From assembly GCA_003171335.1 (NCBI GenBank), contig PMYD01000040.1:1-64000 (forward strand): a stretch of 64,000 nt of DNA, written 5' to 3'. Of this stretch, positions 6,625 through 52,395 are shown in pieces. The position numbers and the translations under genes were made by a program. The notes under the pieces were generated by a model. The model was not told the DNA's origin and did not search any database. It saw only the letters and a list, made by a program, of their open reading frames with translations. The DNA is from Phycisphaerales bacterium. GTDB taxonomy: Bacteria > Planctomycetota > Phycisphaerae > SM23-33 > FEN-1343. Positions within the stretch are counted from its first letter, which is position 1. Each line of letters starts with the position of its first letter.

Positions 6625-6766
6625 GTGGAACCATGTCAAACGCGACCTCAGGAGCGAAAGTTTCGCTCCTGGTGAGCTTCCAAAACGAGAAAGCCTGTCA
6701 CGTGGTCGAATCGACCACGTGGAACCATGTTGCGTGACCTCAGGGGCGAAAGTTTCGCCCCTGCTA
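6625..6766. repeat. tandem pair of GTGGAACCATGT..CCTCAGG-hairpin repeats with an intervening palindrome
   Basis: AGGAGCGAAAGTTTCGCTCCT (6650-6670), CACGTGGTCGAATCGACCACGTG (6699-6721), AGGGGCGAAAGTTTCGCCCCT (6742-6762); a further copy at 29716-29736. Confidence 0.8.
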
Positions 6767-8763: not shown

Positions 8764-11700
8764 TCACTGCCAGAGGCCATAACCCACTTGCCAGTCCAGG
8801 AAGTCGACGCCATCGACCTTGCCATCGCCGTTGGTATCGCCGGTGGCCTTGGTGGCGCCGGAGGCGGTGGGGTAATGCGACTGCCAGACCAGGAAGTCGA
8901 CACCATCCACGCGGCCGTCGCCGTTGAAGTCGGCCGACAGGTCGCCATCCATGGTGACGGTCACATCGCGGTAGCCGGTCAATTGCCCATCGCTGGCGGA
9001 CAGCCGCAGCACGTACGTGCCGGCGTACTGGAGATTGACCGTGGTGGTCGCGGCCGCCGGATTGGCGAAGACGACCGCGTGGGGACCGGAGACCAGGGTC
9101 CAGGCGCAGGTGATGGAGGGCGGAGTCGGCTTGCCATCATCGCTGACCGAGCCTTGCAGGCTCAGGGTCTTGGTCGGGGCCGTGATGCCGCCGGCGGCGA
9201 TGATGCTCACCACGGGCGCCAGGTTGTTCGGCGGGTTCACCGTAATGGTCACGTTGGAGGTCGCCGAAAGCGCCGAGTCGCTGGCCGTCAGGCACAGCAC
9301 ATACGTGCCGGCCGTGGAGAACGTGGCCGTCGTGCTCACGGAAGAAGCGTTGGCGAAGGTCACCGTGCCGGGCCCGGAGACCTCGCTCCAGGTGGACGTG
9401 CAGAGGCCCGGGGGATTGGGCTTGCCGTCATCGCTCATGGCGCCGCTCAGCGTCGCCGCCGCCGGCAGCGTGATGGTCTGATCCGTCCCCGCGCTGACCG
9501 TAGGCGCCACGTTGTTGGCGGCGGTGTACAGCGCGGTGATCTGGGCGCTGGTCAGCGCCACGCTGTGGATCCGCACATCATCCAGGCCGCCGGCGTACAT
9601 GCGGACGTTGCTCAGGTCATTGCGAGCGCCCAGGAACAGGGCGGAGTTGGGGTCGAAGCTGGCGCCGCCGCGGTTGGGATCGGCGGCAATCTGGTTGGCG
9701 TCCAGGTAGACGATCGAGCCGACGCCCGGCTTGACGGTCAGCGTGTAGAAGTGCCACTGGGAATCCAGGGGCAGGTTCGCATCCAGCGTGTTCGTGTAGG
9801 CGCCGTCGGTGGAATCCAGCAGATACGTGCGGATGTGGTTGGGATAAACCGTCTCGCTGGCATTGGTTTTGAGGATGTTCAGGCTGTTGGCCACATCGAC
9901 GGTACCCTGGCTGAAGAAATACTGGTACGTGCCGCCGGCGTTGTCGGCCTTGAACCAGAAGCTGACGCTGAACTCAGGCCCGTAGGGGAAATCCGGCACC
10001 GTGACGTAATCGGTGGCCCCGGAGAAATGGATCGCCCCGCCCAGGTGGCCGGCGACCCACGTTGGGCTGTTGATCAGTGTGCCGTCGTGGCCGTTGCCCG
10101 TGGTGTCGTGGGCGATGCTGCCGCTGCCCTCATCAAAGGGCAGGTGCAGGAGCAGCGTCGCGTTGGCCGCGTTGGGATCGACAATGCCGATCGTGACCGT
10201 GCCATAAGCCGAGTACTGCGTATCGTTGGCGGTCAGACGCAACGTATAGGTGCCCACGGTCGAGAAGGTGACCGTCGTGGTGGGCGAGCTGGCATTGGCG
10301 AAGGTGACGCTGCCCGGGCCGCTGTCAACCGTCCAGGCCTTGCTGACGGTCGCGCCGGAAGGCAGGCCATCATCGCTGACCGTGCCGGCCAGGGTCGTGG
10401 TCAGCGTCGGCAGGGAAAGCGCCTGATTTGACCCGGCGTTCACCACCGGCGGCTGATTGCCCACCGCTGCCTGGCTCAAGACGATAAACGCGCCGAATTG
10501 TTGGGGCGTGTGCACATACGGCACCGGCGCGTTGCCGGCCGGCTGGGCCGCGGTGGTGGAAGTCATCGGGATATTAATCGTGCCGCCGGCGTACGTGCCC
10601 GAGGCGACCGGCGAGCCGAAGAAATTCTGCACATCCTGCACGACGTATGAAGACCCGACCGTCAGGATGGATGACACATCCACCGCCACGCTGCTGTACA
10701 GCGGCCAGTTGTAGACGGCGATGTTGCCGCGGCCGCTCTCGTAGGGGTTGGCGTGGACGAACACGTGCAAGGCCGTCGGCATGCCCTTGGTGTAGGTGGA
10801 GTGCACGTCGAGGGTGGGGTAGTTGGTGCGCCAATCGGTCCAGCTCATCAGCAGCGAGCTGGGCAGCCGGTAGAACGGCTGCCACTCGTTCCACTGGTCG
10901 GGGACCTCGGTGCAGTAATAGGTGTTGTAGTCCCAGTTCCAAGCCGTGGGATTGACGCCGGAGGTGTTGATTTTGCACATGAAGTTGGTGGCGGCAACCG
11001 TGTTGTTGCGGTACGTGAGCGTCTGCCACTGGTTCATGGAGGAGCCGGCGATGCAGTAGTTGTTCTGGACGTTGGCGTCAACGCTGACATACCCGGCCAC
11101 GTATCCCACTTCCATGCCCGTGCCGCTCAGACTGCGGCGGTAGAAGTTGTTATCGCAGACAATGATGCCGCTGGAGGCGTTGCCGCCGCCGATGATCAGT
11201 TCGTCGCCCGTGCTGTTGTCAGACAGGACTCCGGCCTCGAACCAGATGTCGTGATCGAACGTGAAGTTGTTGGTAAACGTGTTGCCCGTGCCGTAGGCCT
11301 GGGTGCCGTTGTCAAAGTTGGCGAAGATGATGTTGTCGTGGTACCACTTGATGCCGGTGTTGTTCTGGGAGTAGTTGCCGTGGCCGTGGCCGCGGTCGGG
11401 GCCCTGCCAGCCGTTGAAGTAGATCAGGCAGCCGGCGCCCTCGAAGTTGACGCTATTGACCCAGCCGCCGATACCGCCGGCGCAGTCGTGGATGACGATA
11501 TTGATGAGCTTGCAGTAGCTGCCGCCATTGGTCGTCGTCATGCCGCCGGCGATATCAATGTCGGTCGGCCACGAGTACGGGTGCGCGTAATCGGCGCTGA
11601 CGCGGTTGGTGACGGAGGAGGTGATTTCAAAACCCCAGAAGTTGACGTACGTGCAGTACATCAATTGCAGCGTTTCAAGTTGATTCCAGACGGTGTTACC

Positions 11701-21395: not shown

Positions 21396-21475
21396 GTGAC
21401 AACCGTTGTCACCCGATGGCCGCCGGCAACTTTAAACCGTTTAAAGTACGGTTGGTCTTTGTTAGGCAATGGGCT
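21396..21475. repeat. odd palindrome GTGACAACCGTTGTCAC plus inverted copy of the CTTTAAACGGTTTAAAG unit
   Basis: 21396-21412 perfect 8+1+8; ctttaaaccgtttaaag at 21431-21447 followed by tacggttggtctttgttagg, reverse complement of the 52.3-kb unit. Confidence 0.8.
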
Positions 21476-29609: not shown

Positions 29610-29715
29610 CGCTTCACAAGCTCACTTCGCAAACCAGCGGGCACACGGCCCGATATTGAGATTGTCCTATATATTTGTATCGGCGTCAAGGAAGTTCAAC
29701 GTAAGGCGCGGCTGC

Positions 29716-29736
29716 AGGGGCGAAAGTTTCGCCCCT
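29716..29736. repeat. dispersed palindrome AGGGGCGAAAGTTTCGCCCCT
   Basis: identical to 6742-6762. Confidence 0.85.
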
Positions 29737-29777
29737 GTTGCATGGCTGCCGGAACGGCCGTGAGGACTTCGTTCTTT

Positions 29778-29820
29778 AAGTGTTACATTCATCACCTTTA
29801 AGGTGACGAATGTAACACTT
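29778..29820. repeat. 43-nt near-perfect odd palindrome
   Basis: AAGTGTTACATTCATCACCTT-T-AAGGTGACGAATGTAACACTT, 20/21 pairs. Confidence 0.9.
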
Positions 29821-29898
29821 AGACCATCCCATGCAGCAGACCAAGTGTCCACGAAGCGCCGACTGTAACACTTATCGCCTGTGCCGGCAGCCAAACCG

Positions 29899-37368: not shown

Positions 37369-37421
37369 GAATTGAGGCAAGCGTACGGCGAGCGGCGGCG
37401 ATTTGCAAGGCGGCGTAGAGG

Positions 37422-37574
37422 CAAATCCCAAATTCCAAATCCCAAATCCCAAACAAATTCCAAGCACCAAATTCCAAAGGGGAGCAAAAGCACGTCCAGA
37501 GCGAGCGGATGTCCCTTCCCGGGGTTTGGAATTTGGGATTTGGTGCTTGTTTGGGATTTGGAATTTGGGATTTC
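37422..37574. repeat. 7-nt periodic inverted-repeat element, AAATCCC/AAATTCC family, copy 2
   Basis: aaatcccaaattccaaatcccaaatcccaaacaaattccaagcaccaaattccaaa and tttggaatttgggatttggtgcttgtttgggatttggaatttgggattt. Confidence 0.93.
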
Positions 37575-38762: not shown

Positions 38763-39854
38763 TTACAGTTTGACGCTCGCAAAAACCTTGCGATTGGCGG
38801 CCGGGAAGGCATAGCGCGAGAACTGGGCCGGCGTGATCCACTTCAATTCCGTGTGCACGTGCGGCCGGCAGCGGCCGGCCGAAACCGTGCAGCGATAGAC
38901 GTGCAGGTCAATGGTCATGTGGCTGTAGGCATGGTAAACGCTGGCCACGTGGGAGCCGACCGCGATGGCCAGACCGACTTCCTCGCGAATCTCGCGCTGG
39001 AGCGCCGCCGCGCGGGTCTCGCCGGCCTCGACCTTGCCGCCGGGCAGCTCCCACAACCCGCCTAGGAGGCCCCCCGCCGGCCGGCGGCCGATGAGGTAGC
39101 GCCCGCGGCGCTCGATGAGGCCGGCGACGATCGCGTAATGCGGCAGCGCCTTGCGGCGCATCCGCACCGGCAGGCGGTCGGCATCGCCCGCGCGGCGGGC
39201 ATCGCACAGCCGGCCGATGGGGCATTCATCGCACGCCGGCTGCCGCGGCCGGCAGATCGTCGCCCCAAGGTCCATCAGCGCCTGGTTGAAATCGCCTGCG
39301 CGCCTGGCGGGCAAAAGCTCCTCGGCGATGCGCCACAGCCGGTCCTGCGCCGCGGCCTGATTCAGCGGCCGGCGAATGCCCAGCAGCCGCGCGTACACGC
39401 GCTTGACGTTGCCATCCACCACCGGCGCGGCTCTCCCGAAAGCCACGCTGGCGATCGCCCCGGCCGTGTAACGCCCCACGCCCGGCAGGGCCATCAACCC
39501 CTCGACCGTATCCGGGAACTTGCCTTCAAGCTCCCCCACCACGACGGCGGCCGCACGCATCAGGTTCCTCGCCCGGCTGTAATAGCCCAGGCCCTCCCAC
39601 AGCTTGAAGACCTCATCTTCGCTGGCCTTCGCCAGGGTTTTCACCGTCGGCAGGGCCTTCAAGAACCGGCGGTAATATGGCAGTACGGTCGCCACCTGCG
39701 TCTGCTGGAGCATGATCTCCGACAGCCAGATGCGGTAGGGGTCCTTCGTCCGCCGCCAGGGTAGGTCGCGGGCGTGGCGGCCGTACCAGGTAAGCAAAGA
39801 CCGCTGGAGATAAGACCGCAGGCGTGATAACTCTGGCGATTTGACGGAAGACAC
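38763..39854 (-). CDS. mutY: A/G-specific adenine glycosylase
   Basis: RDLPWRRTKDPYRIWLSEIMLQQTQVATVLPYY, LPGVGRYTAGAIASVAFG, VDGNVKRVYARL, C-terminal NUDIX-like GGLWELPGGKVEAGE. Confidence 0.95.
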   Translation of the reverse strand: MSSVKSPELSRLRSYLQRSLLTWYGRHARDLPWRRTKDPYRIWLSEIMLQQTQVATVLPYYRRFLKALPTVKTLAKASEDEVFKLWEGLGYYSRARNLMRAAAVVVGELEGKFPDTVEGLMALPGVGRYTAGAIASVAFGRAAPVVDGNVKRVYARLLGIRRPLNQAAAQDRLWRIAEELLPARRAGDFNQALMDLGATICRPRQPACDECPIGRLCDARRAGDADRLPVRMRRKALPHYAIVAGLIERRGRYLIGRRPAGGLLGGLWELPGGKVEAGETRAAALQREIREEVGLAIAVGSHVASVYHAYSHMTIDLHVYRCTVSAGRCRPHVHTELKWITPAQFSRYAFPAANRKVFASVKL

Positions 39855-39900: not shown

Positions 39901-40119
39901 TCACGTGGTCAAGTTGACCGCGTGATCCTGCTCAGGAGGCAACCATACACAATATGTAGTAGGTCCTCGCCCCTGGCTACACAATTCCCTCATTCACTTC
40001 ATGACCGTCATGAAGTGAAACCTTCAACCAGTTCATTCCCGTGATGAACTGAATGCCTCTTACGACGGTACGCTGCCTCAGCACCGATGGCGGCGTCGAC
40101 TGGGGAAATTCCTCAGTCG
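39901..40119. repeat. cluster of four unrelated odd-length palindromes
   Basis: TCACGTGGTCAAGTTGACCGCGTGA (39901-39925); TTCACTTCATGACCGTCATGAAGTGAA (39993-40019); CAGTTCATTCCCGTGATGAACTG (~40030-40052); CGACTGGGGAAATTCCTCAGTCG (40097-40119). Confidence 0.85.
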
Positions 40120-40141: not shown

Positions 40142-41128
40142 TCACGTCTGCTGCATCAGCAGTTCCACATACTGCGCCCGCTCGAAGGCAAAGCGGTCGG
40201 GCACATCCTCCTGACTGAGTTTGCCGCGGAAATCGGCCAGCGTGGCGTAGCCGTGCCGGTCCATCCAGCCGGCCAGTTCCGCGTTGATGTTCGAGAGCTG
40301 GTCCACGCCGTGGAGATACAGCGTCGAGACCACCTGCACGGCCGTGGCCCCCGCCAGCAGTTGCCGCACGACGCCGCCGGCGGCGTGGATGCCGGTCGAG
40401 GCCACCAGGTCGGCCTTGACCCGCCCGTGCAGCAGCGCGATATACCGCAGCGGCAGCCGGGAATCCTCGGGGCGCGAGAGATTCATCGCGTTACGCAACG
40501 TCTGGCTCTCCTCATCGATTTCCGGCTGGACGAAGCGATTGAAAAGCACCAGCCCCCGGGCGCCGCGATGGTCCAACTCGTTGGCCACGTGAATCAGGTT
40601 CGTGTAGAACGGGCTGAGCTTGACGGCCACGGGAATGGACACCTCTTCCACCACCTTCTGCACCGTGTCGTACAGATCTTTCTCGACATCCTGCGGCGCG
40701 CGATCGGGGTCGGTCTGCACGGCGTAGGTGTTCAGTTCCAGGCCATCTACGCCGGTGTCCTGGAGCTGCCTGGCGAATCCCGCCCAGCCGTCGGGGCTGA
40801 CGGCGTTGAGGCTGCCGAACAGCGGCATGCGCACCGCCTTGCGGCTCTTGGCCACCCACATGAGGTGCTCGCGCGGCCCGGCGTGCTCCAGCGGCGGGAA
40901 GTACGTCAGCGACTCGGCGAACCGCTCCGAGCCGACGGCCAACTGCTCCGACAGCCGCAGCGCCTCGACCATGATCTGCTCTTCGAAGAGCGACTTGATC
41001 ACCATCCCCCCCGCCCCGGCCTCTTCCACTTCCTGGATCGTTGACAGCCGCCCCGACAGCGAGCAGGCCCCCACAAGCACCGGGCTGGAAAGCGGAATCC
41101 CCATATAAGTCGTTGCTAAGTCGGCCAT
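40142..41128 (-). CDS. dihydroorotate dehydrogenase-like protein
   Basis: ADLATTYMGIPLSSPVLVGACSLS...GAGGMVIKSLFEEQI...VKLSPFYTNL...ASTGIHAAGGVVRQLLAGATAVQVVSTLY. Confidence 0.88.
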   Translation of the reverse strand: MADLATTYMGIPLSSPVLVGACSLSGRLSTIQEVEEAGAGGMVIKSLFEEQIMVEALRLSEQLAVGSERFAESLTYFPPLEHAGPREHLMWVAKSRKAVRMPLFGSLNAVSPDGWAGFARQLQDTGVDGLELNTYAVQTDPDRAPQDVEKDLYDTVQKVVEEVSIPVAVKLSPFYTNLIHVANELDHRGARGLVLFNRFVQPEIDEESQTLRNAMNLSRPEDSRLPLRYIALLHGRVKADLVASTGIHAAGGVVRQLLAGATAVQVVSTLYLHGVDQLSNINAELAGWMDRHGYATLADFRGKLSQEDVPDRFAFERAQYVELLMQQT

Positions 41129-41298
41129 AGGAACCTCCCACTCATCTCTGTTGGCACGGGCCTTTAGGGCTCGTGTCGCGTTACCAGGCACTTTCAGTAG
41201 TTTCACGCGAACCGTGCCTGAAGGATTATTCGCACGCGACGGGGGCCGAGTCAAATCGAGCGGGTCGGTAAGCGAAGCGGCGGCAAGGAATTCGGGGG

Positions 41299-41454: not shown

Positions 41455-41982
41455 ATGATCCTGCGTCTGGTCGCGGCGGCCGTTGGCCTGGCGATGCTGG
41501 CCGGCTGCGAGGAAAGCACGCGCTACCGATCGATCTCGCTGGGCAATGTGGAGATGCCCGCCGCCATGATGGCCGCCCGCGATGTGATGGGCCAGTATTA
41601 CGGCATCGCCGAGGTGGATGAGTACGCCCACAAGTTCACCTGCGACCCCAAGGTGATGAGGGGCGCCACGGCCGGCCTGCTTTCCAAGGGCTCCGCACGC
41701 GAGCTGGCCGTGCTGCGCCTGCGCAGCGAGGGAAACGCCGTGTGGGCCGACGTGAGCATCATCGTGCAGCACGGAGAAGCCCCGCAGCGGCGGATGATGG
41801 ATCCCTGGATCAGCGGCTACGATTATCCCAGCCCGCCCCCCTACCAGAAGGACGCCCCCTACACCGCCGAGCAGGAAGAGGCCTGGCAGACCGTCGGCCA
41901 TAATGATGCGACGGAGGCGAGAATTCTCCAAGATCTCTACAATGCGCTGCACCCGGAGACGACCAGCCGGCCGGGGAAGTAG
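41455..41982 (+). CDS. hypothetical lipoprotein
   Basis: lipobox AMLAGCEES; plausible RBS AAAGGAG upstream. Confidence 0.75.
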   Translation: MILRLVAAAVGLAMLAGCEESTRYRSISLGNVEMPAAMMAARDVMGQYYGIAEVDEYAHKFTCDPKVMRGATAGLLSKGSARELAVLRLRSEGNAVWADVSIIVQHGEAPQRRMMDPWISGYDYPSPPPYQKDAPYTAEQEEAWQTVGHNDATEARILQDLYNALHPETTSRPGK

Positions 41983-42034
41983 AGTATGCGCCGGGGAAGC
42001 AGAGTCTGCGAATAGTGAGGATGCCACACCGGCC

Positions 42035-42220
42035 GAAATCCCAAATTCCAAATCCCAAATCCCAAACAAATTCCAAGCACCAAATTCCAATGTTCAGCGG
42101 GAAGTCTCTGCGCAACACAACCTTTTTGTTCCCCTTTGGGATTTGGAGCCCTTCGGCGGTGAGCCGCTCAGGGCGGTCGAACCGCTTGTTTGGGATTTGG
42201 AATTTGGGATTTGGGATTTG
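42035..42220. repeat. 7-nt periodic inverted-repeat element, AAATCCC/AAATTCC family, copy 3, with nested palindrome insertion
   Basis: right arm interrupted by agcccttcggcggtgagccgctcagggcggtcgaacc (~42147-42183) at the conserved atttgg|tgcttgttt position. Confidence 0.88.
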
Positions 42221-52149: not shown

Positions 52150-52161
52150 GACTGGCCTGAC

Positions 52162-52210
52162 GTAACGGATAATGGACCTGGCAACGGTTGCCATGTCCGT
52201 TATCTGTAAC
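52162..52210. repeat. 49-nt odd palindrome
   Basis: arms GTAACGGATAATGGACCTGGCAAC / GTTGCCATGTCCGTTATCTGTAAC around a central G; 20/24 paired. Confidence 0.8.
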
Positions 52211-52270
52211 GTTCAGACCGAGCATAAGGGAACATGGGCTCTTGGTTGCGATAACCGCCCAATCCGACAA

Positions 52271-52395
52271 CTTTAAACGGTTTAAAGTTGGAGGATTCGG
52301 CCCTAACAAAACCTGACCGTACTTTAAACGGTTTAAAGTTGGAGGAATTCCATAACAGAACCCGACCCACCTTTAAACGGTTTAAAGGTGACCCG
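52271..52395. repeat. three ~50-bp direct repeats each starting with palindrome CTTTAAACGGTTTAAAG
   Basis: 17-mers at 52271-52287, 52322-52338, 52371-52387; shared CCNTAACARAACCYGACC tails. Confidence 0.93.

Follow-up and report, generated by a model that had tools for sequence, protein, structure and literature searches.

We find that the four palindromes in a 220-bp intergenic region of the window (the whole 64,000-nt stretch of DNA analysed) are members of a dispersed population of sites, and sequence patterns in this genome and in homologs elsewhere make it very probable that these are binding sites for homodimers (or, in hetero-palindromes, heterodimers) of paralogous ParB_N-HTH proteins, which have the ParB/Noc/KorB fold and of which the StrR-like proteins are the best-known members. 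Under this proposal, the recognition helix of each subunit (V-a-X-b-[T/F/M]-V) would read one half-site, the single central base would be the dyad, and several paralogs with different helices would give rise to several palindrome families. The gene for each such protein usually also contains its own operator, a few dozen bases past the helix codons, in a disordered linker, and given this position beside the helix codons, specificity and site would be passed on together. The intergenic arrays of this genome, with their helical phasing, would have arisen by spread of the sites, and the proteins could sit next to each other there on one face of the DNA. The sites, the paralogs, the in-gene copies, the covariation with the helix and the phasing are seen in the sequences themselves; physical binding to the sites is what we infer from these patterns.

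Four palindromes and their dispersed relatives

The four palindromes (Table 1) lie where an earlier note on this DNA had placed them, in the gap from the 3' end of a dihydroorotate-dehydrogenase (DHODH)-like gene to the 5' end of mutY. The note took all four to be odd, which holds for the three with a single centre base, whereas the third in order is a hetero-palindrome joining two half-sites. This type is a recurrent class, represented by 15 copies of CAGTTC[A/G]TTCC-C-GT[A/C/G]A[T/C]GAACTG in the 1.47 Mb sampled, and since its pairing of CATTCC opposite CAT[C/G/T]AC recurs as a heterodimer site would, we propose that it is such a site rather than a failed palindrome. The four were also said to share no sequence with one another; this is true within the 220 bp, but further copies of each are numerous in the rest of the genome, which is why the 261-bp palindrome region returns 44 matches against its own genome, nearly all of them partial. 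The CATGAC family alone has 14 sites with ≤1 mismatch (1.47 Mb sampled). The GGTCAA arm of the first palindrome recurs behind the helix VSHATV in a phage homolog (L315), and the GAGGAA family, to which the fourth belongs, has an in-gene copy in paralog C45, with helix VSNKTV. Within this genome, a search for a cognate paralog of the CATGAC family found none, there is likewise none for the CATTCC/CATCAC hetero site, and there is probably none for GGTCAA. The observation that no single regulator would read four different sequences thus stands, as the different half-site specificities of several paralogous proteins, together with one hetero-palindrome, would account for all four.

Table 1 Positions of palindromic sites and of the genes flanking the four-palindrome region in the window
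Feature	Position	Strand	Remarks
mutY (A/G-specific adenine glycosylase)	38763..39854	-	Palindrome cluster upstream; product name from sequence alone
Odd palindrome TCACGTGGTCAA-G-TTGACCGCGTGA, 12+1+12, one mismatch	39901..39925	.	Family CACGTGGTCAA, inner half-site GGTCAA
Perfect odd palindrome, 13+1+13	39993..40019	.	Family CACTTCATGAC, inner half-site CATGAC
Hetero-palindrome CAGTTCATTCC-C-GTGATGAACTG, 8-bp arms, 7 nt between	40029..40051	.	CATTCC half-site opposite CATCAC half-site
Odd palindrome CGACTGGGGAA-A-TTCCTCAGTCG, 11+1+11, one mismatch	40097..40119	.	Slightly degenerate GAGGAA-family member
DHODH-like gene	40142..41254	-	Palindrome cluster just past stop codon; product name from sequence alone
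Cluster of three odd palindromes (CAGGAGCGAAA, CACGTGGTCGA, CAGGGGCGAAA families)	6649..6763	.	Between convergent genes
TTAAAC-family odd palindrome, 19-bp core ACTTTAAAC-C-GTTTAAAGT	21427..21449	.	
Odd palindrome CAGGGGCGAAA-G-TTTCGCCCCTG	29715..29737	.	
Array of three TTAAAC-family odd palindromes	52268..52390 (52268-52290, 52319-52341, 52368-52390)	.	51 and 49 bp apart

The genome assembly comprises 4.2 Mb in 169 contigs and is 91% complete. Our sample of 1.47 Mb includes a non-blind part that was partly chosen for holding matches, and a blind sample of 371 kb made up of the window and 20 contigs taken blindly. Among palindromes with 11-bp arms and at most one mismatch, the blind sample holds 45 with a 1-nt centre, compared to 22 without a centre, 20 with a 2-nt centre and ~15-26 at most other loop lengths (the 42 counted for 3-nt loops are partly 1-nt-centre sites counted again), and the excess of odd over even palindromes that the earlier note had singled out for testing is therefore present. 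Chance does not account for the palindromes: 10-bp-arm palindromes with a 1-nt centre number 74 in the blind sample vs 34 in third-order Markov shuffles; the similarity-enriched sample gives 271 odd palindromes vs 55-56. Candidate sites in the 1.47 Mb total 402, of which 284 have ≤1 mismatch, and the blind contigs alone give a density of ~55 well-conserved sites per Mb. These sites form ~25 recurrent sequence families, all of them 11-1-11 (example arms are CAACTGCGGAA, CAACTGAGGAA, CGACTCCGACA, CACGTCCGGAA, CAGGGGCGAAA, CACTTCATGAC and CACCTTTAAAC). Approximately 93% lie between genes, often in clusters of as many as 14 sites, and tandem, divergent and convergent gaps are all used.

The earlier note had suggested a comparison with relatives as a guide to gain and loss. 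An exact match to the commonest pattern occurs in none of 39 relatives, and in the parts of relatives sampled no intergenic spread was seen and such palindromes are not enriched. Two relatives (G076 and G008) possess homologs, that of G076 with an in-gene site, and odd palindromes are not visibly in excess in the parts of these genomes that were sampled. Families for which no cognate gene was found, including CCGACA, GCGAAA and CATGAC, account for 142 of the 284 well-conserved sites. As the assembly is 91% complete, their cognate genes may lie on missing contigs; lost genes or other readers may also explain them.

Several other repeats were also noted. A short word around CTACTACATATTGTG / CTACATGTAGTAGG recurs between palindromes in several clusters (39945-39970 of the window; L011 10360-10380; L027 6800-6815), and ATTCCCAAATCCCAAATTCC-type repeats, which read as GIWDLEFGIWNLGF / PNPKSQIPNPK in several ORF frames, are found at 37400-37480 and in the region 41980-42090 of the window. 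Larger odd dyads of ~45-53 bp, with ends TAAGTGTTAC...GTAACACTTA or ACGTAACGGATAATGG..., recur beside operator clusters (29777-29821 and 52160-52212 of the window; L024 ~10800-10900) and make up an element family of their own, which may be MITE-like or another dimer site. A dispersed repeat containing 'attagccacgggcgcgagcccgtgg' lies between operator clusters (L024 9910-10120 and 10440-10700; L027 6340-6640); repeats of this kind are common in planctomycete and verrucomicrobial genomes. By its repeats and overall character the genome is of planctomycete type.

The ParB_N-HTH paralogs and known systems

This genome encodes ten full or near-full ParB_N-HTH paralogs. Because the family has only ten members, an all-against-all BLASTP of sampled genes for a large paralogous regulator family showed none that stood out. 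PF02195 (ParB_N) matches paralog C45 above cut-off and most others below threshold, and Pfam HTH matches are weak (residues 120-149, below curated cut-offs), with helices at 124-131 and 135-146 predicted at high pLDDT. In the AlphaFold model the N-terminal domain and HTH are confident, and the palindrome-encoded linker (residues 148-154) has pLDDT <50. A sequence-only PDB search with a paralog gave marginal matches only, and a fold search gave Noc, ParB, KorB and Spo0J as best matches (E 4e-7 to 1e-4). Noc and ParB are CTP-binding clamps that spread from their sites, and where ParB has GERR a DGFHR motif stands here. Two C-terminal-only fragments are also encoded (G000 C132:5574-5897 and C139:46957-47289), and may be what is left of paralogs that were lost, with their operators surviving as orphan families.

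Among the fold matches, KorB of plasmid RK2 (8qa8, 8qa9) is a repressor of the ParB family. The KorB operator is an odd palindrome; unlike the system described here, KorB has one operator sequence and a role in plasmid regulation. StrR-like activators (StrR, CmlR, NovG, Bbr, Tei15*, Dbv4) also combine ParB_N with an HTH and have an odd 29-bp palindromic operator. That of StrR is GTTCGACTG-N11-CAGTCGAAC (PMC8306873, PMC8406272), which is present letter for letter in genes of three Nocardia homolog records (L129, L165, L175); in this genome only the core CGACTG-N11-CAGTCG occurs, in some families, matching those of CGACTGCGGAA and CGACTGAGGAA. The paralogs differ from StrR-like activators in their short linker and in the C-terminal part, which bears a CPxCxGxGCxxC motif; their operator families are many, and there is no known antibiotic cluster. 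Furthermore, their HTH directly follows ParB_N, whereas the annotated HTH of StrR is residues 197-230 (PMC10886168). In ParB/parS and Noc/NBS, as here, a ParB fold with an HTH is paired with palindromic sites, and specificity of ParB and Noc is set by a few residues of the HTH region (PMC7383237). However, parS and NBS are 16-bp sites (PMC8494293, PMC8429893), in contrast to the odd 23-bp sites here, which belong to ~25 families within a single genome, form phased heterotypic arrays and include an operator located in the gene itself.

A potential alternative, compatible with our preferred explanation, is that ParB_N-HTH sites serve mainly for partition or nucleoid organisation, in the manner of parS or NBS, and not for gene regulation, to which we assign slightly less than an even chance. 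Noc binds sites scattered around the chromosome (PMC4331003), and the fold matches to Noc and ParB are in keeping with such a role, as is one low-GC element of the viral collection in which the protein lies beside ParA, with sites at both. In addition, convergent gaps hold 14 of 75 scored clusters vs 71 of 504 gaps >150 bp, so that promoter-bearing gaps are not clearly preferred; this fits poorly with plain transcription operators and slightly favours Noc-like nucleoid platforms over StrR-like local regulation. Against this, a ParA-type Walker motif was found within ~1.5 kb of only 4 of 101 homolog loci and within 1.5 kb of none of the ten paralogs here, which makes ordinary partition unlikely, and the StrR-like relatives are transcription activators (PMC10886168). 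We infer that the intergenic arrays may act as regional regulatory or nucleoid-organising platforms (Noc/ParB-like nucleation), and not as classical promoter operators.

Among viral-collection sequences, a partition locus has the sibling palindrome ACTGAGGAAnTTCCTCAGT within a parB-like gene, again upstream of parA, and in the ParA/ParB-like locus at L231 1-1640 (IMGVR_UViG_2537562115_000003) an operator-bearing parB-like segment is duplicated and inverted upstream of parA.

Signs of protein sites on duplex DNA

Centre-to-centre spacings between sites peak at 21, 32-33, 42, 53 and 63 bp. With each family pair and distance used once, and with a null in which distances were smeared over one helical turn (5000 trials), the resultant at 10.5 bp is R=0.39 (n=217 unique pairs), a value that none of the 5000 smeared nulls reached; excluding the 21 and 42 bp classes it is 0.29 (n=179), again unmatched by any null. 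Of 198 sites whose ten outer pairs are exact, 171 also retain the innermost base pair, which counts against a hairpin, since a hairpin cannot pair across one base. Mismatches likewise show no G-T bias (81 G-T vs 92 A-C). Intergenic, clustered sites with a helical spacing of ~10.5 bp suggest dimeric protein sites on duplex DNA, neither terminators nor REP elements.

REP-like mobile hairpins, that is, palindromes mobilised by RAYT/IS200 transposases, are also small, dispersed, intergenic, clustered and lineage-specific, the genome has 13 Y1_Tnp (PF01797) matches, and spacers shared by some arrays indicate that segment copying has occurred. Nevertheless, no family palindrome lies within 1.5 kb of any of the 13 Y1_Tnp loci, the GTAG/CGTC tag tetranucleotides of such elements are lacking, and helical phasing, retention of the innermost pair and copies behind HTH codons would all be left unexplained, making this origin very unlikely. 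We regard transcription terminators or other RNA hairpins as extremely improbable: some single odd palindromes among matches in Firmicutes do resemble bidirectional terminators flanked by A- and T-runs, but the clusters shown here lack T-runs past the palindromes, contain up to 14 sites, occupy gaps of every orientation alike and are phased, and their mismatches are unbiased. The rejection of terminators in the earlier note is consequently upheld, whereas its suggestion of cruciform-dependent integration or recombination sites is not supported: phasing, innermost-pair conservation, the palindromes that follow HTH codons within genes and the covariation of sites and recognition helices all point to duplex-DNA sites of several paralogous ParB_N-HTH proteins. 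An Rfam search returned a sub-threshold SECIS_1 match only (E 0.16), over the palindromes themselves.

In-gene palindromes and a proposed recognition-helix code

In nine of the ten paralogs, palindromes of the dispersed families lie in frame within the post-HTH linker, and these include GAGGAA, GCGGAA, GGTGAA, CCGGAA alternating with GAGGAA-type, TTAAAC and CAGGCT; in the tenth (C25) there is just a short GGAGAA dyad with 7-bp arms, lying further downstream. Paralog C44 carries eight in-gene sites, with CCGGAA and GAGGAA types alternating every 42 bp, and C159 carries three TTAAAC sites 51 bp apart. The TTAAAC array of the window (Table 1) is 80.6% identical to that of C159 over 129 bp, spacers included. 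Within predicted genes of the sample, all sites with ≤1 mismatch are in ParB_N-HTH paralog genes. StrR itself has a site inside strR. The simplest reading of the in-gene copy is autoregulation or a nucleation site, and its lasting effect would be that helix and site become exchangeable together.

A scan of public genomes with one family gave repeated matches in ParB-like genes, where the palindrome encodes T-A-E-I-P-Q just past the HTH and before a G-x-D-G motif. The sequence ACTGCGGAAnTTCCGCAGT has 64 cross-genome matches; those in Acidobacteria and Pelotomaculum were considered as the same dispersed repeat, which we rejected, as many proved to be in ParB-like genes and some are terminator-like. 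This sequence matched 36 viral stretches vs 3 for the control palindrome ACTGGCGAAnTTCGCCAGT, and a search of viral stretches with the family ACTCCGACA matched none. We then rely on 125 distinct homologs from viral contigs and relatives, picked by protein similarity alone, with the qualification that one collecting profile (A3, 21 loci) had the EIPQ peptide among its seed patterns, which makes those few loci less than fully independent of the motif; for the remaining 80 viral loci and for the relatives, the collecting patterns lay in the ParB/HTH part. Counted per 10-codon bin past the HTH (bins of ~123), odd palindromes occur in 46 at codons 10-19 and in 12 at codons 0-9, with 0-5 elsewhere, and even palindromes in the same two bins number 4 and 2, respectively.

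It is scarcely credible that the in-gene palindromes merely reflect a conserved ParB-like peptide, T[A/E/G]EIPQ, with the intergenic ones unrelated, for although TAEIPQ[L/S] recurs across phyla, the encoded peptide varies (TEEIPQL, TAEIPQL, TGEIHQL) and is wholly different in some homologs (TLNGLKL, RPEIPDV, QAKPELV) while the DNA is still an odd palindrome, the linker is predicted to be disordered, palindrome sequence tracks helix residues, and intergenic and in-gene TTAAAC arrays share spacers.

Across the homolog set, the helix follows the pattern G-V-a-X-b-[T/F/M]-V, and the bases of the palindrome follow its residues. Residue X varies with the fifth base from the centre (D/E with C, H with G, N/Q with A, P/R/V with T), and the residue before the last V varies with the base next to the centre (T with A in 22 of 23, F with C in 3 of 4). 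Mutual information between X and base 5 ranges from 1.47 to 1.69 bits across three identity cut-offs (0.70, 0.55 and 0.45), with permutation p <1/5000 at the first two and p=0.006 at 0.45 (n=11). Below 55% identity (n=28; 1.47 bits), X predicts base 5 in 28/28 cases, including D/E-C 16/16, H-G 5/5, N-A 2/2 and P/R-T 3/3. The predicted site is CAACTGCGGAAnTTCCGCAGTTG for C113 and CAACTGAGGAAnTTCCTCAGTTG for C45.

Because the gene usually carries its own site behind the helix codons, a protein-to-DNA recognition code should be readable straight from genome sequences. ParB-family proteins with palindromic sites, StrR-like operators and chromosome-scattered sites are known; a limited search of the open literature turned up no description of cognate operators placed beside recognition-helix codons in different phyla, none of the code that follows from this, and none of a genome in which ~25 operator families of this kind form phased arrays. 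On balance we favour the broader view that 'self-addressed' ParB_N-HTH proteins, with an operator behind the helix codons that yields a readable residue-to-base code, are widespread in phages and bacteria, and that their expansion in this genome has produced a genome-wide system of these families, whose arrays, helically phased and in part heterodimeric, serve to organise the chromosome or to regulate it. If so, the specificity of very many uncharacterised ParB-like proteins of phages and bacteria could be read from sequence and their operators and regulons predicted, which would also be relevant to the StrR-like activators of antibiotic genes, whose DNA-binding mode is said to need further study (PMC10886168). 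A single recombination event would change specificity and site together, providing an evolutionary route to new pairs, and many orthogonal operators in phased arrays could offer useful parts for synthetic regulation or DNA labelling.

Operator clusters are not confined to this genome, as seen from trios of odd palindromes (CTTAGGAA, CTGCGGAA and a GGGGAA/GGAGAA type, 24-35 bp apart) in a Candidatus Solibacter MAG (L156 1785-1870) and a viral contig (L224 3655-3740), which sit between genes resembling phage portal and head-protease genes. In a Gordonia MAG (L157 2920-3130), the tandem unit gtgcggcccgtgcgggtgagggcgggat occurs four times near a serine-recombinase-like gene, with a different perfect palindrome between its copies (CGACTGCGGAA, CGACTGGGGAA, TGTCACCAATTGGTGACA).
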